A stretch of DNA of 64,000 bases from a virus, in IMG/VR virus record IMGVR_UViG_3300025809_000991, positions 86,962-150,961 of that record. One strand, given 5' to 3'. This document shows positions 1 through 39,528 of the stretch, one piece after another. The notes under the pieces were generated by a model. The model had not been told where the DNA came from. It saw nothing but the letters and a program-made list of their open reading frames with translations, and made no database searches. The position numbers and the translations under genes were made by a program. How positions within the stretch are numbered: the first letter of the stretch is position 1; each line of letters starts with the position of its first letter.

Positions 1-520
1 ATTTTTAAATATTACAACAAACGGTAGTGTATACCCAGATGAAAAAGTTATACAACAATTAAAATACTTTCCAAACAGTGTTATATCATTTAGTTTAGAT
101 GGCACTCATGAGCTAGCAGAGACCACCAGGTTTGGAATAAGTTGGAATACAATTGACAGTAACATTCGACGTTTTGCTGAAACCGACATTAATCTTTACG
201 CCAGTTGTACAGTAAGTATACTTAATTTTAATAAGTTATGGACATTACAAGATTATCTTAAACGTTACAATATAAAAGTTTCGTTTAGTGAATTAACGTT
301 TCCAAAACATTTAAGTATATATCAATTACCATTATCAGTTAGAGAACAATTTGTAACTGGTAACACGGAGTTAGACCGCATACTAACAGCAGACATTACG
401 ATTGATAATCAGTTAACCACAACTCGTGATTATATTAATATTATGGATCGACATCAAAAAACAGATTTTACTAGTGTAAATAAACAAGCATGGGAGATAA
501 TAAATGCTAATATCAGGTAA
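1..520 (+). CDS. Radical SAM protein, C-terminal part (cut by window edge)
   Basis: This is the last 172 residues of a reading frame open from base 2 to the TAA at 518-520; the start lies outside the window. Early in the visible part are TTNGS and ISFSLDGTHE, the typical strand motifs of the radical SAM TIM barrel (substrate/SAM side, after the missing CxxxCxxC). It then runs into a long tail with little similarity that I recognise. The 17-base overlap with the next gene suggests one operon. The radical SAM family call is fairly safe; the substrate is unknown. Confidence 0.65.
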   Translation, partial: FLNITTNGSVYPDEKVIQQLKYFPNSVISFSLDGTHELAETTRFGISWNTIDSNIRRFAETDINLYASCTVSILNFNKLWTLQDYLKRYNIKVSFSELTFPKHLSIYQLPLSVREQFVTGNTELDRILTADITIDNQLTTTRDYINIMDRHQKTDFTSVNKQAWEIINANIR

Positions 521-1061
521 TCCTACACAAGGGATAGCGCAATCGTTATCCCAGTTATATCCAGATGCCACTTTTATGAGTAGAAGTACCGGACATGACT
601 TGGTAGAAAGATCAGGAAGAGACGCATTTGCCGCTGAAGCACTCAATCATGATGTTATTATAGTTAACAGCGCACTATGGCAGTTTCAACAAACTGTGCT
701 ACTAGATACAGTGTACAAGAGCCTAAAGGATGCCAAGAAACTAGCACATATAGTAGTCATTGGTAGTACCACGGACCGTGTTAAGAACGGCAAGGCCTGG
801 TTATACAACGCTGAAAAGAAAGCACTACGTGATTACAGTAATACACTTAGCATTGGAGGTGTATGGAGTCGTATGCCCAAAGTAAGCTACATTAGTTTTG
901 GTACACTTAGTAATAATGAACATAAACACCCTGATAGACGATGTATGGCGATTGATACAGCCGCAGATTACATTAAATGGATAATAGATCAACCAGCACA
1001 TATTAATATAAATGAATTAAGTGTTGACCCTGTACAGGATGCCTATTGGTATGCCCTTTAG
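504..1061 (+). CDS. Short-chain dehydrogenase-like Rossmann protein
   Basis: A 185-residue protein that begins directly with a beta strand and a glycine loop (MLISGNPTQGIAQSL), as NAD(P)-binding short-chain dehydrogenases do. VVIGST near residue 88 and a Tyr-Asn-x-x-Lys-Lys stretch (residues 102-107) recall the SDR strand 5 and the YxxxK catalytic pair. It is shorter than a usual SDR (about 250) and may be a trimmed reductase. It sits between two radical SAM genes, overlapping both, so a reductive step in the same pathway is a reasonable inference. The substrate is unknown. Confidence 0.55.
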   Translation: MLISGNPTQGIAQSLSQLYPDATFMSRSTGHDLVERSGRDAFAAEALNHDVIIVNSALWQFQQTVLLDTVYKSLKDAKKLAHIVVIGSTTDRVKNGKAWLYNAEKKALRDYSNTLSIGGVWSRMPKVSYISFGTLSNNEHKHPDRRCMAIDTAADYIKWIIDQPAHININELSVDPVQDAYWYAL

Positions 1062-1725
1062 TAAAGATATTAGCTATTTACATTTTGGTCTGACAAGTAA
1101 ATGCACTCTGTCTTGTCCAGAGTGTGTACGTACAATGAGCAATCCTACGATTAATACATTATGGCGTGATATTAAAGAGCAACGACAAATTGATTGGCAT
1201 CAATATCGTGGAGTTATTAAAGATTTATCATACCAATCAATACTATTTTGTGGTAATTGGGGAGATCCAATATACTATCCTGATCTAATAGAGTTTATCG
1301 CTTATATTAAAACTGTTACTGATGTGCCTATCTATATTCATACAAACGGAAGTTACAAAGATGCTGACTTTTGGCGTCAGTTAGGAGCAGTACTACAACC
1401 ACTGGACCAAATATTGTTTAGTATTGACGGTCTATTAGAAGACGACCAGTATCGTGTTAATAACGATGCTCGGAGCAGACAGTTGGGAGTTCAGACACTT
1501 GTCAGTATGCCACCTAAAACAAGACCATTAGTAGTACAAAAACTTTTAGTATTCAGTTATAACGAAAACAACATTCTTAAAATTATTGACCAAAGTAGAC
1601 AACTAGGCTTTGATGTAATTAGAGTAAAATATCCTATTGTTGAAGAAAATCCACATCTAGAACCATCATATCGTGGCACAGATTTTGAGGTGTTGTTTAC
1701 AGAGAAAGGTGGACATCGTGAGTAA
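1039..1725 (+). CDS. Radical SAM enzyme core
   Basis: The iron-sulfur motif is clear near the N-terminus: CTLSCPEC fits CxxxCxxC, preceded by LHFGLTSKC. GNWGDPI (the GGEP-like SAM loop), YIHTNGS and ILFSIDGL follow in radical SAM order. I chose ATG 1039 over upstream GTG 1021 because the frame overlaps the previous gene; ATG 1051 is also possible. The protein stops right after the barrel and its SPASM-like auxiliary domain is coded by the next, overlapping frame. This looks like a SPASM-type peptide- or small-molecule-modifying enzyme; the substrate is unknown. Confidence 0.75.
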   Translation: MPIGMPFSKDISYLHFGLTSKCTLSCPECVRTMSNPTINTLWRDIKEQRQIDWHQYRGVIKDLSYQSILFCGNWGDPIYYPDLIEFIAYIKTVTDVPIYIHTNGSYKDADFWRQLGAVLQPLDQILFSIDGLLEDDQYRVNNDARSRQLGVQTLVSMPPKTRPLVVQKLLVFSYNENNILKIIDQSRQLGFDVIRVKYPIVEENPHLEPSYRGTDFEVLFTEKGGHRE

Positions 1726-1996
1726 TATTGATCCAAAATGTCAAACGACTGACGTTAATTACCATATTGAAATAAACGGAATGTTTTTACCATGCTGTTG
1801 GCTAGCCACACATCGTGAAAGTATTGATTATCTACGTGAAAAATTAGGCGATGATTATGACCTTTTGTTTTTGACAAATAACAATCCTTATAGTATAATG
1901 GACTTATGGGAAAAATATATTGAAGACAGTTGGTCAACAACTAGTCCTGTTCCTATATGTACAATGCAGTGTTCCAGAAAGACATTAAATGACTGA
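1718..1996 (+). CDS. Stand-alone SPASM-like domain protein
   Basis: A 92-residue protein with an auxiliary-cluster pattern: a Cys at residue 8, then INGMFLPCCW, and a final CTMQC. This layout (C...G.xxPCC...C.xxC) is that of SPASM domains, which normally lie at the C-terminus of radical SAM enzymes. The start is GTG 1718, preceded by AAAGGTGG, and it overlaps the stop of the radical SAM core by 8 bases in another frame. Either the enzyme is genuinely split into two subunits, or a frameshift separates what was one gene. Confidence 0.6.
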   Translation: MSNIDPKCQTTDVNYHIEINGMFLPCCWLATHRESIDYLREKLGDDYDLLFLTNNNPYSIMDLWEKYIEDSWSTTSPVPICTMQCSRKTLND

Positions 1997-3101
1997 CGAT
2001 TTAAAATGGAGTGAATATGACTTTACTAAAATACCCTTTGACGACCTTGTTAGTGTTGGTCAGCGTACTCTGCTGTATCGTGACTTATTTACTGTCAGTT
2101 GGCTACTTGGTAGATTTTGTAATTACAGATGTAGTTACTGTTGGCCTTACGCACGTTCAGATAGAAAAGATCATAGACCAACAGAGCTATGTCTTAGCAC
2201 AATTGATGAGATAAAGAGACAAGCACGTGGCAATGGTTTTAATAGCTTTCATTTTAGTCTGTCTGGCGGTGAGCCTACTTTTCATCCAGGATATCTGGAT
2301 ATTTTGCGTCATTTGGCTGATGATGTTACTAACACTAATTATACCTCTGTGCATATGACATCAAACTGTAGTCGCAATATGCGATGGTTCGAAGACTATG
2401 TAGAACGGGTAAAACCTTTCCATAGAGCTAGTATAACCGCTAGTTTACACACAGAACACTTAAATACACTTGACAAGCTACAAGAGTTTGCAGACAAGCT
2501 CATATTATGTCAGGAGCATGATGTACAGGTTACCATCAATATGGTTATGGTTCCGGAATGGTTCGAAAGGGATTGGGAAAATGCCTTGTTCTTCCACGAG
2601 CAAGGAATCAACGTCACACTCAAGCCACAAAGCGATCCAACGGCGTCAAGAGTCGTGGAAGGTTATACGGACGAGATGTTACAGCGATTGTGGAACGGCA
2701 TGCCGCAAATGGCGTATACTGAGGAAAAACGCAAGTGGGCAGATCGTCCAAGGCCTAGTTTCGAACTGCCGCCGTATACAATAGGTGATAATGATAAAAG
2801 TGTGCCCTGGCACATGCAGATTGAATTTAAAGATTCAACTGGCAAAAAATGGTACATGGATCAAGCAGAACGTTTTAATGCATTTAATTTTAATAAGTTT
2901 AAAGGCTGGAGTTGTAATGCTGGCTATCAAGGTATTATTATACGTGAACCAGATGGCAGTGTAAAGCGTAGTTATAGCTGTGCTGATGTACCATTGGGTA
3001 ATATTGAAACAGGATTTAAACTGTTTGATAAGCCCATGCCTTGTATTAGCGATAATTGTGTAAGCAGTGCTGATAGCAAAATTCCCAAACGTAAACTATA
3101 A
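1989..3101 (+). CDS. Radical SAM enzyme with C-terminal Cys region
   Basis: A 370-residue protein. CNYRCSYC near residues 44-51 is a textbook CxxxCxxC cluster motif, followed by SLSGGEPTFHPG (SAM-binding GGEP) and HMTSNCS. Cysteines near the C-terminus (GWSCNAG, YSCADV, MPCISDNC) suggest an auxiliary twitch or SPASM-like cluster. It overlaps the preceding SPASM-like gene by 8 bases and ends on a late promoter that serves the next gene. This is the third radical SAM protein in 3 kb; the reaction is unknown. Confidence 0.8.
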   Translation: MTDDLKWSEYDFTKIPFDDLVSVGQRTLLYRDLFTVSWLLGRFCNYRCSYCWPYARSDRKDHRPTELCLSTIDEIKRQARGNGFNSFHFSLSGGEPTFHPGYLDILRHLADDVTNTNYTSVHMTSNCSRNMRWFEDYVERVKPFHRASITASLHTEHLNTLDKLQEFADKLILCQEHDVQVTINMVMVPEWFERDWENALFFHEQGINVTLKPQSDPTASRVVEGYTDEMLQRLWNGMPQMAYTEEKRKWADRPRPSFELPPYTIGDNDKSVPWHMQIEFKDSTGKKWYMDQAERFNAFNFNKFKGWSCNAGYQGIIIREPDGSVKRSYSCADVPLGNIETGFKLFDKPMPCISDNCVSSADSKIPKRKL

Positions 3102-3104
3102 ATA
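3097..3104 (+). promoter_or_regulatory. T4-type late promoter TATAAATA
   Basis: TATAAATA overlaps the stop of the radical SAM gene and lies 23 bases before the ATG of the nitroreductase, with an AGGAGA ribosome-binding site in between. It matches the late promoter of T4-like phages and shows that this island is wired into phage late transcription. Confidence 0.65.
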
Positions 3105-3127
3105 TAATATATATAGGAGAATTTAGT

Positions 3128-3745
3128 ATGGAATTAACTGAATCAAGCATTAAAAAAGCTGTAATTAGATCGCAACATTGCCAACGTAATTGGAATTTAG
3201 AAAAAGAAATCCCACAAGAGGATTTACAAACAATGGTGCATGCTATTACAAATTGTCCTAGTAAGCAAAACGCCGCCTTCTATAATGTATATACTATTAC
3301 TGACAGAGACACAATTGAGCGTATCCATGAGAAAACTGAAGGGTTCTATCATAGAGATGAAGAGAAAATGGTTAGCAATAGTCAAACCCTTGCTAATGTA
3401 TTATTTGTGTTCACTAACAATACAGAAAAAAGTAATAGATTAAATAAAAAACGTGACAGTTATGGCGACAATGAAGCCAGTGTTGGTAGAGATTTACATA
3501 TGGCAACTGGCATTGCGGCAGGATATTTAAATTTAACCTCAAGTCTAATGGGGTATAACACAGGGTGTTGTGCATGTTTTGAAGGCGACGAGATACAAGA
3601 AATATTAAATACTGAAGACGAGATTGTATTGCTTATGGGTGTTGGTCATAAAGGCGACATTCCTAGAAGAATACACCACGCAGATAATAGTTTAACATTC
3701 CCTGCAATCCCAAAAGAAGATATAGCGGTAACTTATATAACATAA
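3128..3745 (+). CDS. Nitroreductase-family flavoprotein
   Basis: A 205-residue protein of the size of FMN-dependent nitroreductases. The N-terminal half has a RSQHCQRNW segment and a PSKQNAAFY stretch in the position of the family's FMN-contacting P(S)SxxN..P region. The C-terminal half has GIAAGYLNL...MGYNTGCCACF and LLMGVGHKG, matching the family's helix before the dimer interface and its final GxG strand. The usual role is NAD(P)H-dependent reduction, or oxidation as in azoline oxidases of peptide natural products. It has its own late promoter and good ribosome-binding site, and lies one base before the next gene. Confidence 0.75.
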   Translation: MELTESSIKKAVIRSQHCQRNWNLEKEIPQEDLQTMVHAITNCPSKQNAAFYNVYTITDRDTIERIHEKTEGFYHRDEEKMVSNSQTLANVLFVFTNNTEKSNRLNKKRDSYGDNEASVGRDLHMATGIAAGYLNLTSSLMGYNTGCCACFEGDEIQEILNTEDEIVLLMGVGHKGDIPRRIHHADNSLTFPAIPKEDIAVTYIT

Positions 3746-3746
3746 T

Positions 3747-4427
3747 ATGACAAAAACTGAACAACAGTACTTGGAAATGCACACTGCACCCTTGATTCCA
3801 CTTGACATGAAAGCAAATATGACCTTGTTTTCAGAGTGTATGCGTGAATACCAACATGCGTTTAGAGCATGGGGTGTCAGACATTTAGAACATCAACGTT
3901 ATGGATTACCATTAGTAAATGCCAATGGGCAGTTACATAACAATCCAGAACCAGTTTGCTATCCGCTAGACCAGTGGAATGCACAGCTAGCAGATGCTGA
4001 CCGTGTTAGGGATCATAGCTTTCAAGTACCAACAGAAATACTTTCTCATCGAGCATTTGATTTTTTAGAGCCACTTAAAGATTGTATATTACGTAGTTGC
4101 ATACTAAAATGGATGGATAACAGTATGTTTTATCCTCATACTGATACCAAACTTCAAGGACGTATACTGCGACTATGGGGTACAGATAGACCAGATATGG
4201 TTAAGTTACGTTTTGATCGTAATAGTGCTAGAAGCAATCCCAGAGATGTAGACAACACTGTGTTTGATTTAGCCGCACCAGACTGTGAAATTGAAGCTGG
4301 GCGTATGTATTTAATTGACACAAACATTATACACGATGCGCATAGTTATGCCAACAATACATATCAATTCTTTCTTAGCTTTGACAGAGATAAAAGTTAC
4401 GAAACTATACAACAATTAAAATTATGA
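3747..4427 (+). CDS. Asp/Asn-hydroxylase-like double-stranded beta-helix oxygenase
   Basis: A 226-residue protein. The core shows FYPHTDTKLQGRILRLW, giving an HxD metal pair, and later NIIHDAHSYANN, which would supply the distal His. This His-Asp-His arrangement is that of Fe(II)/2-oxoglutarate oxygenases. The stop overlaps the next gene (ATGA). Three such oxygenases lie within this island and one just past it, so oxidative tailoring is a theme. The exact substrate is unknown and the 2-oxoglutarate dependence is inferred from the fold. Confidence 0.6.
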   Translation: MTKTEQQYLEMHTAPLIPLDMKANMTLFSECMREYQHAFRAWGVRHLEHQRYGLPLVNANGQLHNNPEPVCYPLDQWNAQLADADRVRDHSFQVPTEILSHRAFDFLEPLKDCILRSCILKWMDNSMFYPHTDTKLQGRILRLWGTDRPDMVKLRFDRNSARSNPRDVDNTVFDLAAPDCEIEAGRMYLIDTNIIHDAHSYANNTYQFFLSFDRDKSYETIQQLKL

Positions 4428-5008
4428 AATATTTCACACCACTAGATTTACCGCAATATGATTTACTCAGTTGTATGAACGAGTTATTACAACAAGAAAA
4501 AATTGACTGGGGTACACACAGACAAATTTGTATTAATACTACACCTGATCAGCCCGACAACTATCATCATGGAGATGCTAGTTTAAAATATGATTGGAAT
4601 AATACAATTGATAAAGCAGATAAAGACGGTAATATAACACACTTTACTGTACCATTGCGAGATAAACATTTAAGAGAAAAGCACTTTACTCAGTTATGTA
4701 CGGTATTTGAAAATACTATATTTGCTAAAGTATACCAACAGTTAAGCAGTCAGTATACACTTGGTAGAGTTAGATTAATGACTAGTCTTCCTAAAACATG
4801 TTTAACTTGGCATCAAGATAGTACTAATAGAATACACTACCCACTAGTTACTGATCCAGGATGTCAAATGGTAATTGAAGATGAAGTTTTGCACATGCCA
4901 GAAAATACTTGGTGGTTAACACAAACTGAGCATCATAAACACACAGCATTTAATGCTAGTACAGACAATAGAATTCACTTAGTGGCGGTGGTTAGAAATG
5001 CTGTCTAA
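4424..5008 (+). CDS. Aspartyl/asparaginyl beta-hydroxylase-like oxygenase
   Basis: A 194-residue protein. TWHQDSTNRIHYPLVTD carries HxD plus an RIHxPL strand and ENTWWL..TEHHKHTAFNAS..NRIHLV carries the second His and the Arg that binds 2-oxoglutarate. This is a close match to the pattern of aspartyl/asparaginyl beta-hydroxylases. It is translationally coupled to its neighbours on both sides. It is the best motif match of the four oxygenases in the first 11.5 kb. Confidence 0.7.
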   Translation: MKYFTPLDLPQYDLLSCMNELLQQEKIDWGTHRQICINTTPDQPDNYHHGDASLKYDWNNTIDKADKDGNITHFTVPLRDKHLREKHFTQLCTVFENTIFAKVYQQLSSQYTLGRVRLMTSLPKTCLTWHQDSTNRIHYPLVTDPGCQMVIEDEVLHMPENTWWLTQTEHHKHTAFNASTDNRIHLVAVVRNAV

Positions 5009-5504
5009 ACGTATTGACAATCAACATATTGTACAAGTAGGCGAGTTTGTACGCCAATGTGAAAAACTTGGATACAACAATAACTCCAGTCTACAAAATA
5101 TGAAATGGGATTGGTGTTTGGAATCTGGTGCTTGGTTTGCCACATACATTGATGACGAAATTATAAGTTTAAGTGGTATACACCCTTTTGAAGATGGATA
5201 TAGAGCTTTATTTCGTGGTGCACAATTACGTTCACGTAACGTTGGACTAAACAGATACCACATGCAAAGTTACTGTTTTAGTACACAGTTGCCATTACAA
5301 TTAGAATACGCTCAAGATAAGCCTGTGTACATCACTACAAATATAGACAACGATGCCAGCGGTAAAATGGGAAGTGTTAATCGAACATTTTATCATTTAG
5401 CCAAATATGGTATTGTAGATTTTGTAAGAGCTGATGAAGTATTTTATACACAACAAAATATATGGAAATTAAATAATGAAAAATACAAAAATATTCGACT
5501 TTAA
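4998..5504 (+). CDS. GNAT-like protein of unknown function
   Basis: A 168-residue protein with alternating strands and helices (FATYIDDEIISLSGIH, then GYRALFRGAQLRSR) like an acyltransferase fold. Conserved-looking features are LPLQLEY, YITTN and a final WKLN. I recognise the general look from marine phage and SAR11 hypothetical proteins but cannot name a substrate. It overlaps both neighbours, so it belongs to the same operon. Confidence 0.5.
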   Translation: MLSKRIDNQHIVQVGEFVRQCEKLGYNNNSSLQNMKWDWCLESGAWFATYIDDEIISLSGIHPFEDGYRALFRGAQLRSRNVGLNRYHMQSYCFSTQLPLQLEYAQDKPVYITTNIDNDASGKMGSVNRTFYHLAKYGIVDFVRADEVFYTQQNIWKLNNEKYKNIRL

Positions 5505-5697
5505 ACATCTTAAAAAGGCTGGTGCCGGTTATTTTAAACACTTGACATTGGCTACATATTATAATATACTAGCATTAGGTGTGTTAGTAACAGGAATAAT
5601 TCACAGTTTTATACCGTGGCTATTTCCGTTTACCCCTTACTATCTAGCTAAGAGGATTGTAGATGGCACTGAACGAAACTTTAAAAAAGATAATTAA
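5476..5697 (+). CDS. Small one-helix membrane protein (DUF6356-like)
   Basis: A 73-residue protein with one strong hydrophobic segment (about residues 25-48) and an IHSFIPWLFPFTPYYLAK motif. The IHSxxP...T core recurs in the small membrane protein at 44576-44776, so the two look like distant relatives. It overlaps the oxygenase-side gene and the following ligase gene by about 30 bases each, as in a tightly packed operon. Confidence 0.6.
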   Translation: MKNTKIFDFKHLKKAGAGYFKHLTLATYYNILALGVLVTGIIHSFIPWLFPFTPYYLAKRIVDGTERNFKKDN

Positions 5698-6349
5698 TAC
5701 TGGTACGGCATTGCCAACCAGTGGTACTACTGGTGCGCCTAGACGTATATTTCAACCCCCACATAAACTACAAGCCGCTAATAGTGTAGCTAGACAAGTA
5801 CAAGATATTACTGTTAATAGTCGTATACTAACAGTGTGTACACTAACACATGCTGGCGGATTACTTGCGCAAACATTACCTGCCGTAGAAGTTGGTGCCC
5901 TGGTTGACATACAAAAGTTTAATCCTTATAGTTGGGTTAGACAAATTACAGATTATACACACAGTCATTTAACACCAGACATGGCTCGTGCTGTAATAAA
6001 AACTCGAGGATTTAGTAGTGTAAATTTGAGTGGCATAACTATTATGTGTGGTAGTGATAGAGTACACAGTCGTATTATTCAATCATTTATTGATCGTGGC
6101 GCCACGTTTATTGCTAATTGGGGTATGACAGAAGTAGGCCCAGTAGCAATTAATAGTACGTTTAATCCTGGTGACGTAGTCAGTTTAACTGAAAGTATAA
6201 TGGGCGAGCAAACACATTGTGATACAAAGATTGTAGACAATGAATTGCTAGTTAAAGGTGACATTTGTGTATATGACGATTGGTATCACACTGGTGACCT
6301 AGTAACATATAATAATGGAGTTTACTATTATCTCGGACGTATACAATAA
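5663..6349 (+). CDS. Minimal AMP-forming ligase (adenylation domain fragment)
   Basis: Only 228 residues, against about 500 for ANL-superfamily acyl-CoA synthetases. Core motifs are nevertheless present and in order: PTSGTTGAPR near residue 20 (ATP-binding A3), NWGMTEVGP near 152 (A5) and WYHTGDLV near 210 (A7). It ends at YLGRIQ, just where A8 and the C-terminal lid domain should begin. Missing parts are the first roughly 150 residues and the whole lid carrying the A10 lysine. Both edges overlap neighbouring genes, so this is a settled architecture rather than decay. It could activate a carboxylate for one of the cluster enzymes. Confidence 0.7.
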   Translation: MALNETLKKIINTGTALPTSGTTGAPRRIFQPPHKLQAANSVARQVQDITVNSRILTVCTLTHAGGLLAQTLPAVEVGALVDIQKFNPYSWVRQITDYTHSHLTPDMARAVIKTRGFSSVNLSGITIMCGSDRVHSRIIQSFIDRGATFIANWGMTEVGPVAINSTFNPGDVVSLTESIMGEQTHCDTKIVDNELLVKGDICVYDDWYHTGDLVTYNNGVYYYLGRIQ

Positions 6350-7052
6350 TCCAAACTTTGTTTTTGTAAGTTTTGAACCTGGTAGTAGAGGACACACTAT
6401 CGGGCGTGTCTTGTGCAGTTTACCAGAAGTGTATTGGTATAGTAATTCAGACAACGGTATTAATCCTTGGAACATATCGCACAAGTGTGATTGGATAATT
6501 CAACGTCGAGTAGCCCCCAAACATTTTGATAGGACTATGCCCAACGGAGAAGTATTGCCTCCAGTCTGGGATTATGTAAAAGATTTTGTTGATTGTGATA
6601 CATATTATCGTGACTTATTTCCAGCACAGTTTGAAAAAGCCCAAGGTCAACAATATCTAAACACACATCGGTTATTATACTGTACGCATAGTTTACCAGA
6701 AGAAATACTAACACAGTTTCCCAACAGTCGTGTAATTAATATTGTAGCAGATGCTGATGATATAGTAAATAGATATATGCACACAACGGCGCATTTTCCT
6801 GCCTATCTTAAACTTGAGTGGATGAATGGTAGCAAAACTAAATATGGAAAAATGCTATATCAATTAAGTAAACGTTGGGGATTGTTTTTTACAGTACAAG
6901 ATGTTTGGGAGCATTTAAACAGTGGAAGTTTTTATCAACATATAGAAACACAAATAAAAAATAATATGGCATTGAGGAATCAGACTAATAACAGCCGTGT
7001 ACTTAATGTTAGCTATAGAGAATACCGAAAGATGAAAGAGTTTATCGTATGA
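6315..7052 (+). CDS. Sulfotransferase-like P-loop protein 1
   Basis: A 245-residue protein with FVSFEPGSRGHTIGRVL near the N-terminus, in the position of the PAPS 5'-phosphosulfate loop of sulfotransferases. RVINIVADADDIVNRY sits where the 3'-phosphate site (strand, then RxP...S) is expected. It is the most divergent of three such proteins in this island. No ATG, GTG or TTG lies closer to the conserved region, so the start at 6315 is the only good choice. Function is inferred from fold-like motifs only. Confidence 0.45.
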   Translation: MEFTIISDVYNNPNFVFVSFEPGSRGHTIGRVLCSLPEVYWYSNSDNGINPWNISHKCDWIIQRRVAPKHFDRTMPNGEVLPPVWDYVKDFVDCDTYYRDLFPAQFEKAQGQQYLNTHRLLYCTHSLPEEILTQFPNSRVINIVADADDIVNRYMHTTAHFPAYLKLEWMNGSKTKYGKMLYQLSKRWGLFFTVQDVWEHLNSGSFYQHIETQIKNNMALRNQTNNSRVLNVSYREYRKMKEFIV

Positions 7053-7465
7053 AATATAAATTTTTAGACTTGCCTGCTGTGCCAGAGCATTTAATATTAC
7101 CAGTTGAACAAGTATTAGAACTTGAAAATATATTTGGCGGACGTAGCCCTAATTACACTATACACGAATGTCAAGCGGAATTGGCGGACTATCTTCAAGA
7201 ACAGTTTCCTGAATATACAAAGTTTCGTTATCAAACACTAGTACATGGTGTACCTGTACACAAAGACAGAGGACGAACGACAGCGTTAAACTATATTATT
7301 GACCCAGGCGGCGCTAATGTACACACTATTTGGTATGATGAAGATCAGGTAACCCCCACATGTGATGTTGTACTAGATAAACATCAGTGGCACATATTAG
7401 AAGTTGATTCATATCACACAGTTATGAACATAGAAGAAAGGCGCTTTGCGATTACAATAGCATGA
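7049..7465 (+). CDS. Small Fe(II)/2-oxoglutarate oxygenase-like protein
   Basis: A 138-residue protein, nearly all double-stranded beta-helix. VPVHKDRGRTTALNYII gives the HxD pair; WHILEVDSYHTVMNIEERRFAIT supplies the distal His and a following Arg. Both ends overlap neighbours by 4 bases. Its small size suggests a stripped-down oxygenase or a metal-binding relative without activity. Confidence 0.55.
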   Translation: MKYKFLDLPAVPEHLILPVEQVLELENIFGGRSPNYTIHECQAELADYLQEQFPEYTKFRYQTLVHGVPVHKDRGRTTALNYIIDPGGANVHTIWYDEDQVTPTCDVVLDKHQWHILEVDSYHTVMNIEERRFAITIA

Positions 7466-8169
7466 TAGATACAAATAAAATAATATTCTTTACTGGAGCA
7501 CCAGGAAGTAAATGGAGTGCCACTAGTGTATTACTAGCTAATACTCCAGTAATTGATATAAACATCAGTGACCGATCACCAGAGCGTGGGTATGATCATG
7601 GTCCAGAGTTTAATGGCGTTAAACACTTGGGCGCATATTTTGGTCCAGGATTTGAGTTTGGTGAATGGTTTCATGAACTACACACTGGAAAATATACACG
7701 TGAACAAGTGATTGCTGAAATAGAATTAGCTTATACAAATCATGACGGATATATTATAGTAAAGTGTCATCAGTTTGTTTACAGTTTAGATTGGATTGCT
7801 GAAACGTTTCCTGAAAGTAAAATTATGATTGTTATGCGACATCCAGAAGCATGTTGGGATGGTTGGCATGGAGTAGGTGGTATTAAAATTCCATATCCTG
7901 ATTATACTACGTTTTACAAAACAACTGAACAGGCAAAAGAGTTAATTAACCACGAGTGTATGTTAGCACGTAAATGGATTTATGAACGTGATTTAGCAGT
8001 ACACACTAGTACACCTAGACACTGGCGTGACGTTTGGAAGTTAGATGATACTGATGAAAATCGTCGGTACAGTCATAGTCTCATAGGATATCATCATAAA
8101 AATGATAATCCAACTGAACGATTGAGATATGATGTACAAATGAGTTACTATAATTTTGAGATGATCTAA
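7462..8169 (+). CDS. Sulfotransferase-like P-loop protein 2
   Basis: A 235-residue protein. IFFTGAPGSKWSATSVL is a phosphosulfate-loop-like P-loop, and ESKIMIVMRHPEACWDGWHGVGG matches the R-x-P...S-like 3'-phosphate site. It is clearly paralogous to the protein at 9905-10579: both share an AxxGPGxxxGxEF stretch, YPxYT and the V-GG-I-YP region. The real acceptor is unknown, and PAPS dependence is not proven by sequence. Confidence 0.6.
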   Translation: MIDTNKIIFFTGAPGSKWSATSVLLANTPVIDINISDRSPERGYDHGPEFNGVKHLGAYFGPGFEFGEWFHELHTGKYTREQVIAEIELAYTNHDGYIIVKCHQFVYSLDWIAETFPESKIMIVMRHPEACWDGWHGVGGIKIPYPDYTTFYKTTEQAKELINHECMLARKWIYERDLAVHTSTPRHWRDVWKLDDTDENRRYSHSLIGYHHKNDNPTERLRYDVQMSYYNFEMI

Positions 8170-8170
8170 A

Positions 8171-9265
8171 ATGGATTGTGTTGTAATAGTTAAATCAGGA
8201 GATGCGTGGTGGGATGATATCGCACTTAACTATAGTCAGTTAAGTATTGATCACAGTGTGAGCAGTAGATATAGTCAAAGCAAATATGATTACCATGTCA
8301 TTGATGTTTTTAAACAAGTTGATTATACAAAGTACGATCGTGTTTTAATTATACAAGCAGGTACTATATTAGTATGGGGAAACTACGAAAAGAACATTAT
8401 TCCTAGATTAAAAAATTATGAGAACATAAACATTTGTAGTGGTGCTGACGTCTGGCAACCACAGGGCGAAGGTACTATAGATTTAAAAATGAATATACAA
8501 TCAATTGATCCTTTTACTGCAAACACATTTACACACAGTCATAGCGCCGCTGTGACTAACTTAATAGACGATAGTAATATAAGTTATTTGATGCACAATG
8601 AAATCCCAGAATACGGAGCAACTAGTACGGCTGTTGATTGGGCCATAACAGTGAGTAGTGGATTCTTTATTAATGGGATATTAAATCATCATGGCATGCA
8701 CTCAGACACTGTAGTACATCATATAGACATAAGCAAGATAAGTTTAGCTGTTAGAAAATATACCATTCAAGAATGGGATGGTACAGATATAAAAAGTTGG
8801 ATCAAACACCTACAACAAAAATATCCAAGCATGCAGTTATTTAATAGACACAAGTTTACTGATAGAGATAATGATTACATGATTATCTGGGAAAATCTAC
8901 AAGCTGAATTTGCTGATTGGAGCTCACATTGGCAACAATACCAAAGTTTAGAGCATCACTATCATCGAGTAAATATCAGTAACCGATCAGACATCGATAA
9001 ATTGTTGTTACTAATTAAACAAGGCAATGGTGTAATATGGTGGAATGGAGCATTAAAACGCATGCCAGGAAACTTACTAAAAGACAGTAATGCCAGTCAT
9101 CAGTCAGCTATTGAATTTGTACGAACAATAGCAGAGCATAATCCAAATACAATATGTTATGGAAGCGATCATTGTAGCCGTCAATTTAATGGCGAACTAG
9201 CAAGTACAGTAGCTGAGTTAGTAGCAGAAAATAATAGTAGAGAATTATTGTGGCAGACGAAATAA
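8171..9265 (+). CDS. Protein of unknown function
   Basis: A 364-residue protein that I do not recognise. The first half reads as alternating strands and helices with a DRVLIIQAGTILVWGN segment, recalling nucleotide-sugar-binding folds, but no DxD signature is convincing. The C-terminal third (IWWNGALKRMPGN, TICYGSDHCSRQ) has conserved-looking aromatic and Cys residues. It lies between a sulfotransferase-like gene and the QueC-like gene, overlapping the latter, so it presumably acts in the same pathway. Confidence 0.55.
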   Translation: MDCVVIVKSGDAWWDDIALNYSQLSIDHSVSSRYSQSKYDYHVIDVFKQVDYTKYDRVLIIQAGTILVWGNYEKNIIPRLKNYENINICSGADVWQPQGEGTIDLKMNIQSIDPFTANTFTHSHSAAVTNLIDDSNISYLMHNEIPEYGATSTAVDWAITVSSGFFINGILNHHGMHSDTVVHHIDISKISLAVRKYTIQEWDGTDIKSWIKHLQQKYPSMQLFNRHKFTDRDNDYMIIWENLQAEFADWSSHWQQYQSLEHHYHRVNISNRSDIDKLLLLIKQGNGVIWWNGALKRMPGNLLKDSNASHQSAIEFVRTIAEHNPNTICYGSDHCSRQFNGELASTVAELVAENNSRELLWQTK

Positions 9266-9912
9266 AATTACCCACAGGGCCTATAGGCATATATCTAAGT
9301 GGCGGTAGTGACAGCGCAATATTGTTTTGGTTAATAGCGTCACAAAGACAGCATGACGTTGTGTTACTTACAGTTGCTAGTGATGATAAGAAATATAATA
9401 TAGAGCCTGCGCTAGCAGTAAGCAGGTGGATTCAGTGCTATACATCAGTAAAAATACTAGAGCATTGTGTAACAATAGCGCCAAACTTAGAATTACGCAA
9501 AGAATATAGAGATCAAGCTACTAATAATTTAACTGAGCAATACAATTTAAGTTGCTGGGTAAGTGGAAAAACCCGTAACCCAGATGTAAAGTTAAAGTAT
9601 CATGAACAAAGAAAAAAAGATAGAGATGTGTTACTGTCTAGAGTAATTCATAATCATTTCTATCGTCCGTTTTATGATGTTAATAAAAGCCATCTAGCAA
9701 TGATATATAAAAAATATAACTTAAAAGCATTACAGGATCTAACAGTAAGTTGCGAAACTAGTTACCCACCGTGTGAAGATTGTTGGTGGTGTGCAGAAAG
9801 AGAATGGGCATTTAGTACTACTAGAACAATGAGTGCTCTTGGTACACAAGTAGGTATTACTACTGGCAATACAGTTTTGCTAAGTTCTAGTTTGGGTGGC
9901 AATTATGTATAA
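9250..9912 (+). CDS. queC: QueC-like PP-loop ATPase (7-cyano-7-deazaguanine synthase-like)
   Basis: A 220-residue protein, the size of QueC. IYLSGGSDSAI near residue 17 is the PP-loop SGGxDS, and CETSYPPCEDCWWC near residues 176-189 matches the C-terminal four-Cys zinc site of QueC. QueC turns 7-carboxy-7-deazaguanine into preQ0 using ATP and ammonia. The start is GTG 9250, inside the end of the previous gene. QueE, QueD, FolE and DpdA-like genes lie 20-30 kb away on the other strand, so this could be the missing step. Its island setting also allows a different amidation or thiolation reaction. Confidence 0.6.
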   Translation: MADEIKLPTGPIGIYLSGGSDSAILFWLIASQRQHDVVLLTVASDDKKYNIEPALAVSRWIQCYTSVKILEHCVTIAPNLELRKEYRDQATNNLTEQYNLSCWVSGKTRNPDVKLKYHEQRKKDRDVLLSRVIHNHFYRPFYDVNKSHLAMIYKKYNLKALQDLTVSCETSYPPCEDCWWCAEREWAFSTTRTMSALGTQVGITTGNTVLLSSSLGGNYV

Positions 9913-10579
9913 AGGTAAAGATTTAATCATAGCAACTGGTACACCAGGCAGTCGTTGGAGCGGAGCAATTCGATGTATACAAAGTCAAGTAGACATCAAT
10001 ACGTCAGATGAAGTAAACACTGATAGTTATACTAACGGCGCTAAAGGTTGGCACAGAGGTGCATATTGGGGACCAGGACACGATTATGGTTTAGAGTTTG
10101 ATCGTCTGGATCAATTAAATCGTGACGATGTAATAGCACAATTTCAGGAACCTTTCGATGATTGGGATACTGGTATTAAGATCGTTAAAAGTCATTGGTT
10201 TAGTTATCATATACCTCAACTACGTGAATGGTTTCCTGAAGCAAAGTTCTTGGCATTTTGGATGCCAGATGACTTTTGTTTTGATTGGTGGCATCAAGTA
10301 GGAGGTTGGAATATAACTTATCCTCACTATACTTGGTATGAGAATGACAAGCGTATGAGAGAAAAAATTGCTATAGAGAATAAATTTATTCAACAACATT
10401 TTGATTTACAACAAAATAGTCTAGTAGAACTATTACATAAACTAGGACTAGATAATCAATTACACAAAGAAAAAGAACTTTGTAAACGAGATACAAAGTT
10501 CCAAGATCTTGCAAAAAATAAATCTATTGATCGAGTTCTAAACGACACTGTTCAACGAATTTATACTGGTGTTCTTTAG
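9905..10579 (+). CDS. Sulfotransferase-like P-loop protein 3
   Basis: A 224-residue paralogue of the 7462-8169 protein. LIIATGTPGSRWSGA is the P-loop-like start, and LAFWMPDDFCFDWWHQVGG replaces the usual Arg-Asx-Pro of the 3'-phosphate site with MPDD, so PAPS binding may be altered. ATG 9905 is preferred over GTG 9896 because a GGTGG precedes it. It ends tail-to-tail with a minus-strand gene, overlapping it by 4 bases, and closes the plus-strand island. Confidence 0.55.
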   Translation: MYKGKDLIIATGTPGSRWSGAIRCIQSQVDINTSDEVNTDSYTNGAKGWHRGAYWGPGHDYGLEFDRLDQLNRDDVIAQFQEPFDDWDTGIKIVKSHWFSYHIPQLREWFPEAKFLAFWMPDDFCFDWWHQVGGWNITYPHYTWYENDKRMREKIAIENKFIQQHFDLQQNSLVELLHKLGLDNQLHKEKELCKRDTKFQDLAKNKSIDRVLNDTVQRIYTGVL

Positions 10580-10866: not shown

Positions 10867-11524
10867 CAGGTATTTGATTATTATATGTGCTGAATAAGTT
10901 ACGAGTATGTTCAGTAGCAACACCTGTAACTAACAGTGTACATCTTGGACCATTTCCAGCGTTTGCTGTACAATGTGGTACATTATACCAATCAAAACTG
11001 TATATTTCTCCAGCCCGATAACCAGTGTGAACAAAGTTTCCGTACTGTATAAAGTGACCTGGCTCCCAATCGTTTAGCATTACCATAAATCTATAAACAC
11101 TGTGCGGATCTGCTTTGTTCCATTTTTCTAATTTATCAATGTGTAAGTTCCAAACTTGACCAGGATGTTGTATGTGTACACGACTTTGTATCGGCTTCTC
11201 ACCTTCTACTAGTCCTAATGCATCTGTCATATGTTGAAATACAGGATGCAATTGGTATTCTAAATTAGTTAAACTAAGTCTAGGATCTGCACCTGCTCGC
11301 ATTAGATCATACTCTTCTGACTCAATGTCTGGACTTGTGCCATCTATTGGATTACGGTTACGCCATGTAATAGCTGTACTACTTTTTACAACAGTTTCTA
11401 GTTCTTTTTGCCATTGTCCAATAAAACGCCCGGCATAGCGCATTGAATCGTATGCCGGGTCCATTTTAAATGAGTCATAATGATAGCTTGTACGAGGCTT
11501 CAATTTGTCCCAATTGCTGTTCAT
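10862..11524 (-). CDS. Fe(II)/2-oxoglutarate oxygenase-like protein
   Basis: A 220-residue protein. WNLHIDKLEKWN gives an HxD pair, and VPHCTANAGNGPRCTLLVTG supplies the distal His and the 2-oxoglutarate Arg, as in aspartyl/asparaginyl hydroxylase-type enzymes. It is on the opposite strand to the three other oxygenases but directly next to that island. The ATG overlaps the stop of tctC by one base. The target could be a protein residue or a small molecule. Confidence 0.6.
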   Translation of the reverse strand: MNSNWDKLKPRTSYHYDSFKMDPAYDSMRYAGRFIGQWQKELETVVKSSTAITWRNRNPIDGTSPDIESEEYDLMRAGADPRLSLTNLEYQLHPVFQHMTDALGLVEGEKPIQSRVHIQHPGQVWNLHIDKLEKWNKADPHSVYRFMVMLNDWEPGHFIQYGNFVHTGYRAGEIYSFDWYNVPHCTANAGNGPRCTLLVTGVATEHTRNLFSTYNNQIPV

Positions 11525-12588
11525 TACTTAACCAAATCTGCTTTATAGATACTTTTAAGTCCTAGTGCTTCACTGTTAAACTTAACTAAGTTCTTGAGAG
11601 CATCTTCAGTAATAAAGCCCATCAATGTGTCACGCATTTGGTCACCTTGTTCTCCAATAAACCATTCGTAATTGCCGTTCTTTGCTTCAATAGCAGCCAT
11701 ACTTTTAGGATCATTATCTAATGCTGTCATTGCCGCACGTAAACGATCACGAAGTTCTGGATTGCCTTTGTTAATCCAAATTGCTTTTTGTAAACCGTCA
11801 CGGAAACTTTTTACAAGTACATACGCATCATAAAACTCTCCACTTGGTGCTACACCCCAACGTGCTTCAAATAATTGTTCTACTTGATATCCTGCTGGGT
11901 AGTTTGTATCGTCACTGTGTGTTCCAGTTGCTGGATCAAGTAGACCATGATGGAACCATAACTCTGCATTTTCATCTGGCTCTACGTGTTTTTGATATGT
12001 TGCTGGGTTCTCACGAGTACCGTTTAGATCTCCACGTTTAAATGCTAAACGTCTTTCACTACCACTCATGCCTTTAACCCATACTACATTTTCTTTAAAG
12101 CATTGAATATATTCGTCTACACTCTTGTCTGGTCCGCATAACATAAGTGTCATAGCAAATGCTTCTGGCACCATTCCTGAACCTGCTGGAAAACGTGGCT
12201 TACTCATGTCATCGCCAATACGTTTACCTGCGATAATATTTAAGTTCATAAGTGCAATTGATTCATACTCTGCGTAATCATAAGCTACATCCTCTTGTAA
12301 GAAACTAACACCGTTACCACCGTGTGATACCATAATAGTATTCTCATCAAAGCGTAAATTATTATGATACTCATTAAATCCTGGAATGTCACGAGCACCT
12401 GGAATTAATCGTAATGTAATTTTTTCACCTAAGTGTTTTTCAAGTTCTTTCTTTACAATCTCTGCCCATACAGTTGTGCCTTGACCAGGCTTCTGTGGTA
12501 CTACCATTGTGATTTCAGCAAATGCTACTGTAGCGATTGCCAGTGACGCAACTGCGCCTAATACTAAATTTCTGATTTTCATTTTCAT
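11524..12588 (-). CDS. tctC: Tripartite tricarboxylate transporter substrate-binding protein (TctC/Bug family)
   Basis: A 354-residue protein with a clear Sec signal peptide: basic MKMKIRN, then a hydrophobic run ending VAFAE at about residue 25. The mature part starts TMVVPQKPGQGTTVWAEI, matching the Bug-family P-xxPGGxxD-like ligand loop. It would sit in the host periplasm and deliver an organic acid to TctA, which lies 3 bases upstream. It is slightly longer than the usual 320 residues. Such a binding protein in a phage genome is an unusual auxiliary metabolic gene; the ligand cannot be read from sequence. Confidence 0.8.
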   Translation of the reverse strand: MKMKIRNLVLGAVASLAIATVAFAEITMVVPQKPGQGTTVWAEIVKKELEKHLGEKITLRLIPGARDIPGFNEYHNNLRFDENTIMVSHGGNGVSFLQEDVAYDYAEYESIALMNLNIIAGKRIGDDMSKPRFPAGSGMVPEAFAMTLMLCGPDKSVDEYIQCFKENVVWVKGMSGSERRLAFKRGDLNGTRENPATYQKHVEPDENAELWFHHGLLDPATGTHSDDTNYPAGYQVEQLFEARWGVAPSGEFYDAYVLVKSFRDGLQKAIWINKGNPELRDRLRAAMTALDNDPKSMAAIEAKNGNYEWFIGEQGDQMRDTLMGFITEDALKNLVKFNSEALGLKSIYKADLVK

Positions 12589-12591
12589 CTC

Positions 12592-14043
12592 CTATACAAA
12601 ATCAATACGTGCTTTATTAAAAAATATTCCCCAAATTGCGGCTGCAATTGCTAGGGTTATGAATACAGCTGGTAGTGGTTTTAGTAGCAAATCTTGCCAC
12701 CCATAACCAAATGTATCAAACTGTACCCAACTTGATTCTAATCTAGCACTAAGAATAAAACCAATCAAGAAGCTCACTCTACTGAACTTCAGATACTTCA
12801 TTGCCATGCCTACAACACAACAAATAGCTAACATAGCATAATCATCTATCATGCCTGTGTACTGTGTACTAGCCCAAACTAAACTTGCTAGTATAGGCCA
12901 GAAGTAATACTTAAACGGAAGGTTTGTTATATACACTGCATACTTGATAAACCCATAACTAATAGGCAGTATGAGTAACAAACTCCACAAGTAACTACTG
13001 AGTAGTACATCAAAAAATCTTTGATCTTCTAGTACACTTGGTGTACCTAGCTCAAGTCCAACATACATCAACAGTCCCATTACTATAACTTCAAATGGTG
13101 CGCCAGGGATACCAAACAACACTGTAGGAACATAACTGGTTGCCTTTTGTGCATTGTTTGCACCTTCACAACCTATTACTCCTCTAACATGACCTTGTCC
13201 AACATTTTCTCCATCACGTTTTCCAAGTGCAACAGTTTGGCTATATGCAAACCAATCAGCAATTGCTCCGCCTATGCCTGGTACTAGTCCGATAAAGCCT
13301 CCTATTAGACCTCCACGTAATCCATCCCACTTATAACGCCAAGTGTCTCGAACACCTTGTATTAGTTGTTCAACAATAACACCATTAGTTAATTTTATCT
13401 TTTCTGCTCGCATACGATATGCACTTACTAGTTCTGGAAATGCTAACACTCCTGCCATTAATGGTATTATTTGTACACCTGCTCCAAGATATTCCCAATC
13501 CATAGTCCAACGTACACTAGCAGTATTTGGATCCATACCAATATGCCCAACAGCAACGCCAGCAACTAATGCTACAGCGCCACGGAACCAATACTTACTA
13601 CTAACAAATATAACACAAGTCATAGCAAATATCAAGAACGAAAACATTTCTGCTGTACCAAAATACAGTACAATTTTAGTATAGTAAGGCAGAAACAAGA
13701 ACACAGCCAAGCCCCATATTAATCCGTTTATCCAACTTGTACTAATTGCAGCACTAAGTGCTCTAGCGGCTTCACCTCTTCTTGACATTGGAAATCCATC
13801 TACCATAGTAGCGGCGGCACCGCCTGCTCCTGGTATATTCATAACAACACCGCAAAATGTATCTCCTATACTGCTAGTAACTACAATGGCTGTAGTAAAC
13901 ACAACTAGCATGTAAGGATCTTCAAAGTAGCCTACAAAACTGTAAACTGCAATCAGTCCAGTTGTAGCACCAGCCACAGGAACGAGCCCTACGAAAAATC
14001 CGTAAAACACACCTAATAATAATACAACAATGTAATAGTCCAT
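12592..14043 (-). CDS. tctA: Tripartite tricarboxylate transporter large membrane subunit (TctA)
   Basis: A 483-residue polytopic membrane protein. Near the N-terminus is GLVPVAGATTGLIAV and in the middle GLVPGIGGAIADWFAYSQ, the duplicated glycine-rich TctA motifs. It starts in the host inner membrane and is close to the family's usual 500 residues. TctC follows 3 bases downstream. No TctB (small four-helix subunit) is visible nearby. The leader is unusual: the AAGGAG is separated from the ATG by a hairpin (14054-14070). Confidence 0.85.
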   Translation of the reverse strand: MDYYIVVLLLGVFYGFFVGLVPVAGATTGLIAVYSFVGYFEDPYMLVVFTTAIVVTSSIGDTFCGVVMNIPGAGGAAATMVDGFPMSRRGEAARALSAAISTSWINGLIWGLAVFLFLPYYTKIVLYFGTAEMFSFLIFAMTCVIFVSSKYWFRGAVALVAGVAVGHIGMDPNTASVRWTMDWEYLGAGVQIIPLMAGVLAFPELVSAYRMRAEKIKLTNGVIVEQLIQGVRDTWRYKWDGLRGGLIGGFIGLVPGIGGAIADWFAYSQTVALGKRDGENVGQGHVRGVIGCEGANNAQKATSYVPTVLFGIPGAPFEVIVMGLLMYVGLELGTPSVLEDQRFFDVLLSSYLWSLLLILPISYGFIKYAVYITNLPFKYYFWPILASLVWASTQYTGMIDDYAMLAICCVVGMAMKYLKFSRVSFLIGFILSARLESSWVQFDTFGYGWQDLLLKPLPAVFITLAIAAAIWGIFFNKARIDFV

Positions 14044-26653: not shown

Positions 26654-26917
26654 CTAGTCTTCGCCAGTAGCGTCTAGTGCGACACTGCGGCACAAATCGT
26701 TAAACCATAAGTCAACAATTTTTTCAGGTGTCTCACCAGCATAGCCAGCTTCTCCTAGCAGTCCTACAAAATCTTCGTTCCAATCTAGTTCAAAGTAACC
26801 TTGTGTTGGGTTCTCTTTATCAAAATGTACTTCAATAACTTTAACCCAAGGACCAATAGCAGTCTCTTTTGTTACTTCTTTACTTTTGGAAAAAACGTTT
26901 TTTAGTTTATTAAGCAT
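26654..26917 (-). CDS. Small phage protein
   Basis: An 87-residue protein from ATG 26917 (MLNKLKNVFSKSKEVTKE), which follows GGATGGA and overlaps metK by 8 bases. The earlier ATG 27016 would overlap metK by over 100 bases. GPWVKVIEVHFDKENPTQGYFELDWN is the central strand region. Function unknown. Confidence 0.6.
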   Translation of the reverse strand: MLNKLKNVFSKSKEVTKETAIGPWVKVIEVHFDKENPTQGYFELDWNEDFVGLLGEAGYAGETPEKIVDLWFNDLCRSVALDATGED

Positions 26918-29120: not shown

Positions 29121-29206
29121 TATAGTTCTTTACGTATCTTCTCATAATTAATTGGTGCTTCCATTGCCCTACGTAACTGTTCGTTTTGTTTAAGTTCCCC
29201 AGGCAT
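29120..29206 (-). CDS. Very small ORF between queE and the methyltransferase
   Basis: A 28-residue frame, MPGELKQNEQLRRAMEAPIN then YEKIRKEL, ending TAATG with the methyltransferase start. It begins inside queE. The tidy overlap and charged composition suggest a real small gene; a longer frame through queE on the same strand looks like a shadow. Confidence 0.35.
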   Translation of the reverse strand: MPGELKQNEQLRRAMEAPINYEKIRKEL

Positions 29207-39341: not shown

Positions 39342-39528
39342 TATGTTCTCCTAATTGGTTAGTTAGTTTTACTATCTCCTGTTTTAGGAGCAGTTTTTCT
39401 TTCTTAAGTTTTTTAATACTAAGTTCAGCACTAGTATGTTTATACAACTGTTCTATCTGTTTGTCAAGAGCTTTATGCTTACTTTCTAAACTTTTTAACC
39501 GTTGTTCGATGTTTGGGGGCATTTTCAA
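39334..39528 (-). CDS. YdcH/DUF465-like small coiled-coil protein
   Basis: A 64-residue protein. IEQRLKSLESKHKALDKQIEQLY and IKKLKKEKLLLKQEIVKL (read in parts) form a helical hairpin of the DUF465 family. Start at 39528 overlaps the upstream gene by 50 bases; an internal ATG (MPPNIEQ, 39522) is possible. Function in host or phage unknown. Confidence 0.65.
   Translation of the reverse strand: MKMPPNIEQRLKSLESKHKALDKQIEQLYKHTSAELSIKKLKKEKLLLKQEIVKLTNQLGEHNG

Follow-up and report, generated by a model that had tools for sequence, protein, structure and literature searches.

A radical SAM-rich gene island with a conserved core in marine jumbo phages and Bdellovibrionota

The 64,000-base stretch analysed here (the window) comprises bases 86962-150961 of the 150,961-base IMG/VR virus record IMGVR_UViG_3300025809_000991; 'contig' coordinates refer to the whole record, and window coordinates start at record base 86962. 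A first-pass annotation had described the first 10.6 kb of the window as a biosynthetic unit rich in radical S-adenosylmethionine (SAM) proteins (rSAMs). As a unit these 10.6 kb do not stand, since they are only the 3' tail of a larger island that starts about 44 kb upstream of the window, where most of the conserved system lies. The island is a single plus-strand run (contig 43183-97540, about 54 kb) directly 3' of tail-fibre-type genes and makes up about a third of the 151-kb phage fragment. Open reading frames (ORFs) cover about 97% of it, and 51 of 61 gene junctions overlap or are at most 4 bases apart, an approximate figure that takes in some artefacts of ORF calling. It encodes 18 rSAMs (PF04055 at 17 places on 16 proteins, plus the proteins at contig 62308, with 225 bits to NF033640, and at window 1021-1725), two of them B12-binding, together with four QueC-like proteins (contig 71445, 73659, 78557 and 96211).

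The major capsid protein (gp23) is 66-70% identical to those of the jumbo T4-like phages PA5oct, Vibrio 2.275.O, Sinorhizobium Phosso and Pectobacterium CBB, and the record is therefore probably a piece of a jumbo phage genome. The position of the island had brought pelagimyophages to mind, but membership in that group is doubtful given the affinity of gp23. T4-like genes flank the island on both sides and several independent contigs show the same arrangement, which excludes a host contig wrongly joined to phage sequence; these contigs and the conserved order described below also rule out misassembly or chance co-location. Marine jumbo phages carry such islands, 40-55 kb in size, and wherever this end was read, fibre-type genes precede them. 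The part of the island that falls in the window contains the following features.

2-520, plus strand: C-terminal part of an rSAM with an N-terminal twitch-like region; full gene contig 86363-87481, cut by the window edge
504-1061, plus strand: short-chain dehydrogenase/reductase (SDR)-like reductase c4; YxxxK-type motif by eye and conservation, no Pfam match
1021-1725, plus strand: rSAM domain protein of a split rSAM/SPASM pair; PF04055 1.9e-6, just under cut-off
1718-1996, plus strand: separate SPASM-like partner; PF13186 E=0.04, PCCW motif
1989-3101, plus strand: rSAM c0, the constant 3'-terminal island rSAM, with a twitch-like C-terminus; PF04055 5e-15
3097-3104, plus strand: TATAAATA, resembling a T4-type late promoter and belonging to the nitroreductase cassette; by motif
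3128-3745, plus strand: nitroreductase-family flavoprotein c3; PF00881 3e-11, 28 family members in fetched loci
3747-4427, plus strand: possible 2-oxoglutarate-type oxygenase; HxD...H by eye, no Pfam match
4424-5008, plus strand: Asp/Asn-hydroxylase-type oxygenase c2; PF05118 1e-9, 30 loci
4998-5504, plus strand: GNAT-like protein c21, opening a cassette of three that includes the two genes after it; no Pfam match
5476-5697, plus strand: DUF6356 small single-span membrane protein; PF19883 7e-7, one hydrophobic segment
5663-6349, plus strand: half-size AMP-binding (adenylating) domain; PF00501 3.6e-15 over profile positions 170-374 of 384
6315-7052, plus strand: P-loop protein, weakly sulfotransferase-like; PF13469 E=0.004, under cut-off
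7049-7465, plus strand: possible beta-helix oxygenase; no Pfam match
7462-8169, plus strand: P-loop protein, weakly sulfotransferase-like; PF13469 E=0.001, under cut-off
8171-9265, plus strand: protein without family assignment; sub-threshold matches only
9250-9912, plus strand: QueC-like PP-loop ATPase; PF06508 24.9 bits (cut-off 22), 1.6e-5, TxSC[ED]...CxxCxxC motif
9896-10579, plus strand: P-loop protein resembling 7462-8169 by eye (GxPGSxWS), end of the island; no Pfam match

The genes proposed at first pass are all present where it had placed them, on the plus strand, and their identities hold to differing degrees. Profiles support the rSAMs, the nitroreductase, one oxygenase, the AMP-binding half-domain (median length 228 amino acids (aa) in 8 loci) and the QueC-like protein. 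All three rSAMs stand, the first as the end of a larger protein that starts upstream (PF04055 at contig 86690-87172, 36 bits; Cys-rich N-terminal part). So does the separate SPASM-like partner: six loci, including one on a Bdellovibrionota contig, have a short SPASM-like ORF directly behind an rSAM ORF, overlapping or adjacent to it, and the arrangement of window 1021-1996 is present in L016, L080, L136 and L126. This partner likely starts at a GTG overlapping the preceding stop (GTGAGTAA). The reductase c4 is assigned from motif and conservation; at 50% clustering, 27 other loci have a homolog, c4 often lies directly upstream of c0, and a homolog is found in Bdellovibrionota locus L130 at 41%. 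Of three proposed beta-helix oxygenases one matches Pfam, and the GNAT-like call finds no Pfam match; the gene order c21-c35-c29 is repeated in several loci. The three sulfotransferase-like assignments are weak or unconfirmed: two proteins reach 17.7 and 19.8 bits against a PF13469 cut-off of 27, the third has no match, and a search of the PDB with the protein at 7462-8169 returned no relative. The region 3.1-10.6 kb is a lineage-specific add-on, found for the most part only in close relatives such as L010 and L011.

What is conserved among phages is a core of seven genes spread across the island, whose starts in the record are as follows.

contig 45896, plus strand: GT1, putative glycosyltransferase
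contig 67469, plus strand: GT2, putative glycosyltransferase of the same family
contig 68179, plus strand: methyltransferase-like protein
contig 69236, plus strand: 75-aa protein
contig 70330, plus strand: rSAM c9
contig 72256, plus strand: rSAM c1
contig 88950, plus strand: rSAM c0

The order of these genes, far from random, is the same in all six phages read (G000, G001, G004, G009, G015 and G016), with the middle segment inverted in G016. It begins with two DxD proteins (43183 and 44091 types), GT1, a 48088-type rSAM (in 5 of the 6 phages), nucleoside diphosphate (NDP)-sugar genes and GT2, and continues through the methyltransferase-like protein, the 75-aa protein, c9, c1 and variable genes to c0. 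The tailoring genes between core genes differ from phage to phage. With window 1989-3098 as query, c0 matched at least 363 viral loci, the best 80 at 83-96% identity, and in most of these 80 no other rSAM, or hardly any, follows it in the run. The related viral records hold 10-22 rSAM matches in 15 of 16 cases, and the GT1/GT2 family (alignment A4) is present in all 17 records, G007 included. This exception, a 146-kb viral record (L140, L141), has c0 as its single rSAM match, one GT2-like gene, a nitroreductase and the 75-aa protein, and no island. Among 50,697 catalogued phage records c0 had no match at the sensitivity used and c1 matched only two Vibrio phages, at 21%; PHROGs matches for c0, GT1, GT2 and other unassigned proteins were unspecific.

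The terminal rSAM is also conserved far beyond ThyA. Median pairwise identity of c0 is 86% at the protein level versus 51% at third codon positions, and for the same genome pairs the protein values are 81% for c1, 67% for c13, 59% for ThyA and 54% for a MoxR-type ATPase. By these comparisons c0 and c1 are under strong purifying selection. Somewhat later exchange may contribute to the high identity of c0, because its third positions are slightly more alike (50%) than those of ThyA (43%). In 47 of 81 loci a near-consensus sigma-70 promoter precedes c0, with a -10 box ending 5-7 bases before the ATG and the near-perfect form TTGACA-N16/17-TATAAT (L019-L038, L046-L062 and others); a site 4-7 bases before the start was found in 21 of 1,756 other genes. 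This position predicts leaderless transcripts. The present phage does not have the promoter, and its c0 overlaps the upstream gene. Immediately downstream, the late promoter proposed at first pass survives in part. The site TATAAATA does exist at window 3097, and a similar one precedes a nitroreductase paralog at contig 84546. What favours a late promoter is that, by reading, about 20 of the 28 homologous nitroreductase genes have ATAAATA and a strong Shine-Dalgarno sequence just upstream. As proof of late expression it does not serve, the motif being no more frequent in the window than expected (7 found, 8.7 expected). From the two kinds of upstream site it follows that c0 and the nitroreductase are separately expressed units in many phages, the former likely driven by host sigma factor and the latter likely late.

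The core is not confined to phages. A scan for c0 over 84,980 genomes found it at 57-65% identity on contigs of Bdellovibrionota/Oligoflexia metagenome-assembled genomes (MAGs); two further loci, L090 and L091 (c0 79-89%), look like phage contigs binned elsewhere. Next to the Bdellovibrionota c0 lie different combinations of c1 (47-60%), c9 (35-46%), the methyltransferase-like gene and GT1/GT2; all core genes except the 75-aa protein are found clustered on Bdellovibrionota chromosomes. In one MAG (L122-L124) the rSAM cluster lies between tuf and nusG/rplK/rplA-type genes, which are normally near one another, and the cluster is therefore chromosomal. Within the phylum, 17 of 291 sampled genomes have c0, and the genomes with the cluster hold 9-25 matches to N_Twi_rSAM. 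A tree of c0 sets all Bdellovibrionota rows together (100/99) and separate from the phage rows, a topology that fits one exchange between Bdellovibrionota and phages.

One might suppose that unrelated accessory genes have simply accumulated in a plastic region and have no common product. Cassette turnover is indeed large, the 3.1-10.6 kb region is mostly confined to close relatives, and in G007 c0 stands alone. We consider this improbable, since the order of the seven core genes is conserved, the same core is clustered in Bdellovibrionota chromosomes, and selection on c0 and c1 is strong. Random order in related phages, which the first-pass annotation had named as refuting it, is not what the core shows, and the islands, with their fixed core and variable tailoring genes, are not random collections.

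An AlphaFold2 model of GT1 (predicted local distance difference test score, pLDDT, 85) has listed PDB matches that are almost all GT-A glycosyltransferases, with E from 4e-4, including TarP, TarS, RmlT, SunS, WrtF and mimivirus R699. The A4 family carries a D[GA]DN motif in which Asp67 is invariant, and a PDB sequence search with GT1 and GT2 gave no match. On the strength of the model, GT1 and GT2 are putative GT-A-type glycosyltransferases, the matches being remote but consistent. The two DxD proteins before GT1 (contig 43183 and 44091) are relatives of one another (98%) with a weak match to glycogenin; having no Pfam family and no more than that weak match, they could not be placed among known glycosyltransferases. 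By profile comparison, alignment A8 was not related to A4. The island also contains NDP-sugar genes (PF01370, PF03721/PF00984, PF01041, PF05711, PF08484, PF00834 and PF00483) and a carbamoyltransferase (PF16861, 4.5e-51), and an amidinotransferase in a Bdellovibrionota cluster is a clear StrB1/SxtG relative (1e-29) with a 49% homolog in phage G009. Outside the island, the window holds a cytidylyltransferase fused to a mannose-6-phosphate-isomerase-type cupin (36151-36906, minus strand) and a second cytidylyltransferase (39479-39925, minus strand), both of which add to the sugar-nucleotide genes.

The conserved GT-A-like glycosyltransferases and the NDP-sugar genes favour a product based on sugars over a bare peptide, and we assign a probability of about 0.5 to a sugar-based product assembled in the cytosol. 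In such a pathway, enzymes of the first half of the island (UDP-glucose-dehydrogenase family, epimerases, DegT aminotransferase, nucleotidyltransferases, C- and O-methyltransferases) would make unusual activated NDP-sugars, from which the GT-A-type glycosyltransferases would build a short glycan in the cytosol. The core rSAMs c9, c1 and c0 would then perform conserved radical edits on the sugar chain or its nucleotide-sugar precursors. Finally, the variable rSAMs, including those of B12 type, and the QueC-like ligases would decorate the glycan differently in each phage, together with carbamoyl- and amidinotransferases, oxygenases and nitroreductases. Sugar supply, glycan assembly, radical editing and acceptor are all steps that we infer, as is the function as a whole. 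More broadly, and tentatively, we suggest a distinct class of combinatorial rSAM assembly line that is carried by phages and has passed between marine jumbo phages and Bdellovibrionota. A near-invariant core would provide a common scaffold, probably a glycan or a small molecule bearing sugars, on which the rSAMs, PP-loop ligases and oxygenases particular to each phage would act, so that one architecture would yield many chemically new products.

Several observations weigh against the sugar-based reading. The GT-A match is remote (E 4e-4, TM score about 0.3) and no glycosyltransferase profile scores above cut-off for the GT1/GT2 family. The c0 model (pLDDT 84) has BlsE, viperin, anSME, EpeE and MoaA as its best PDB matches; the closest, BlsE, is a sugar-nucleoside decarboxylase and counts in favour of a sugar-based product, but it says little about the c0 substrate because all rSAMs share the core fold. 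Identity as viperin can be discarded (NCBIfam viperin 40.5 bits, cut-off 180). With its own promoter in 47 of 81 loci and its persistence in G007 when the remaining island is gone, c0 may act partly independently. No acceptor was found in the analysis, and in Bdellovibrionota the acceptor must be another one, as there are no phage fibres there. Twitch/SPASM rSAMs, moreover, commonly act on peptides.

This last point leads to the idea that the rSAMs, QueC-like ligases and oxygenases act on a ribosomal peptide, as in ribosomally synthesized and post-translationally modified peptides, or on a phage or host protein, with the 75-aa protein as precursor or partner. Many of the rSAM sub-family matches are peptide maturases, QueC-family enzymes are able to attach deazaguanine to protein N-termini (PMC13329287), and the 75-aa protein (contig 69236-69463) adjoins c9 in all six islands. 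It also occurs in G007 (loci include L133, L136, L138, L141, L143 and L145) and has no known family assigned. Its conservation, however, extends along the whole length without a variable core, no copy was found in those Bdellovibrionota loci where c9, c1 and c0 are present, and no other recurrent small ORF was seen. A peptide product would also leave the glycosyltransferases and NDP-sugar genes unexplained, and we regard it as unlikely, if the strongest competitor.

The PP-loop proteins themselves form a coherent family common to phages and Bdellovibrionota, with SGGxDS, TxNPP and TxSC[ED]...CxxCxxCxER motifs (alignment A7). They share the SGGxDS PP-loop and C-terminal Cys cluster with QueC, QatC and Cap9 (PMC13329287) but are remote from QueC and Cap9. 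Canonical QueC is rejected as an identity, since TxNPP replaces VPxRN and neither YPDC nor YxQxHxxE is seen in the alignment. A QueE-like rSAM lies outside the island (window 29190-30089, minus strand), and no canonical QueC was among the PP-loop proteins checked.

For a sugar-based product, our first guess at the acceptor is the fibres or other virion proteins of the phage itself, since the fibre genes lie directly before the island and neither a flippase nor a lipid-linked transferase was seen. The virion is our favoured acceptor, though with less than even confidence; a diffusible small molecule and the host envelope glycan are each doubtful and equally so, and anything else is improbable. 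Remodelling of the host envelope glycan (lipopolysaccharide or capsule) so that competing phages are kept out, a role proposed for host-recognition-cluster glycosyltransferases of pelagimyophages, can also be considered as the purpose of the entire island. The genomic position resembles that of the pelagimyophage hypervariable island (PMC7029224), and the Bdellovibrionota copies have glycan genes nearby, membrane glycosyltransferase-like ones among them. We find it rather unlikely, somewhat more so than a peptide product, given that no flippase, polymerase or lipid-linked sugar transferase was seen in the phage islands read; the islands hold almost no membrane proteins, and the present one no multi-span protein.

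The first-pass annotation had left small molecule, peptide and nucleobase open as products, and the last of these has lost ground. Known thymine hypermodification involves rSAM, pyridoxal phosphate (PLP) and ligase enzymes, which makes phage DNA base hypermodification worth considering; this phage has a QueE-like rSAM, and phage glycosyltransferases can glycosylate DNA according to work cited in PMC12619734. Yet no dCMP/dUMP hydroxymethylase to provide a handle was found in the 17 viral records, several of them fragments. Five of the 17 have a thymidylate synthase-family gene, and that family (c12) keeps the ThyA-type Asn (FNIASYSLL) throughout. We judge base modification very improbable.

Radical SAM-rich T4-like phages have been noticed before. 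Nishimura et al. (PMC5332604) reported the T4-like virus TARA_ERS488813_N000010 with 12 rSAM genes under Fe-S metabolism. This rSAM-rich marine genome probably has the same kind of island; no gene order or pathway was given. Zaragoza-Solas et al. (PMC7029224) mention rSAM cassettes in the hypervariable host-recognition cluster of pelagimyophages and cyanomyophages, which is like the present island in its place beside tail fibres, its size (mean 44.6 kb), its glycosyltransferases and its rSAM cassettes. Here too a large variable island with putative glycosyltransferases lies beside T4-like tail-fibre genes. In pelagimyophages the cluster is placed between the VrlC and gp14 genes. In that report, however, the rSAMs are a passing remark, with no core, order, Bdellovibrionota link or mechanism, whereas the present island is rSAM-dominated and has a conserved core. 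Searches of the openly licensed literature turned up no account of the core or its gene order, of a link to Bdellovibrionota, or of a mechanism or function, nor of a phage gene set of this composition, in agreement with the first-pass annotation.

Six of ten island rSAMs tested exceed the 170-bit cut-off of N_Twi_rSAM (NF033640) at 219-413 bits and a seventh (contig 85209) falls just below at 161, while c0 (39 bits) and c9 (41 bits) are not members; the name denotes a domain architecture without known function. Chlorovirus and mimivirus encode their own glycosylation (PMC7826918, PMC9614988), and chloroviruses share a conserved core glycan. These are likewise cases of virus-encoded glycan assembly, and mimivirus R699 is among the GT1 fold matches, but the glycosyltransferase families and hosts differ from those of the present island. 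We know of no rSAM battery in either. Aminoglycoside and nucleoside antibiotic pathways (StrB1, TobZ-type, BtrN/BlsE-type rSAM) have a similar toolbox of DegT aminotransferase, carbamoyl- and amidinotransferases, sugar-acting rSAM and methyltransferases; the likeness is one of toolbox only, as no scyllo-inosose synthase or other core synthase is among the island genes read. A saxitoxin-type cluster was set aside on similar grounds, having carbamoyl- and amidinotransferases in common but no core synthase seen here. Known phages that make or modify glycans use small gene sets, whereas here a biosynthetic island has 18 radical enzymes. The division into fixed core and variable tailoring genes makes it testable what rSAM-rich marine phages make and why it is diversified, and Bdellovibrionota chromosomes offer a cellular copy of the core for possible gene removals.

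Two minus-strand genes elsewhere in the window could serve rSAM chemistry.

26910-28001, minus strand: MetK, a SAM synthetase that may supply SAM; matches to three MetK domains, 5e-57 to 5e-32
43564-44262, minus strand: flavin/NAD reductase-like protein, possible electron supply; PF00175 1.5e-5

MetK is found in 6 of the 17 viral records and a PNP-family (MtnN-like) nucleosidase in 5; though not universal, they fit a high SAM demand and removal of 5'-deoxyadenosine. Adjoining the island, genes at window 11524-14043 (minus strand) resemble a tripartite tricarboxylate transporter pair (TctC- and TctA-like), homologs of which occur in L090, G004 and G009 as well.

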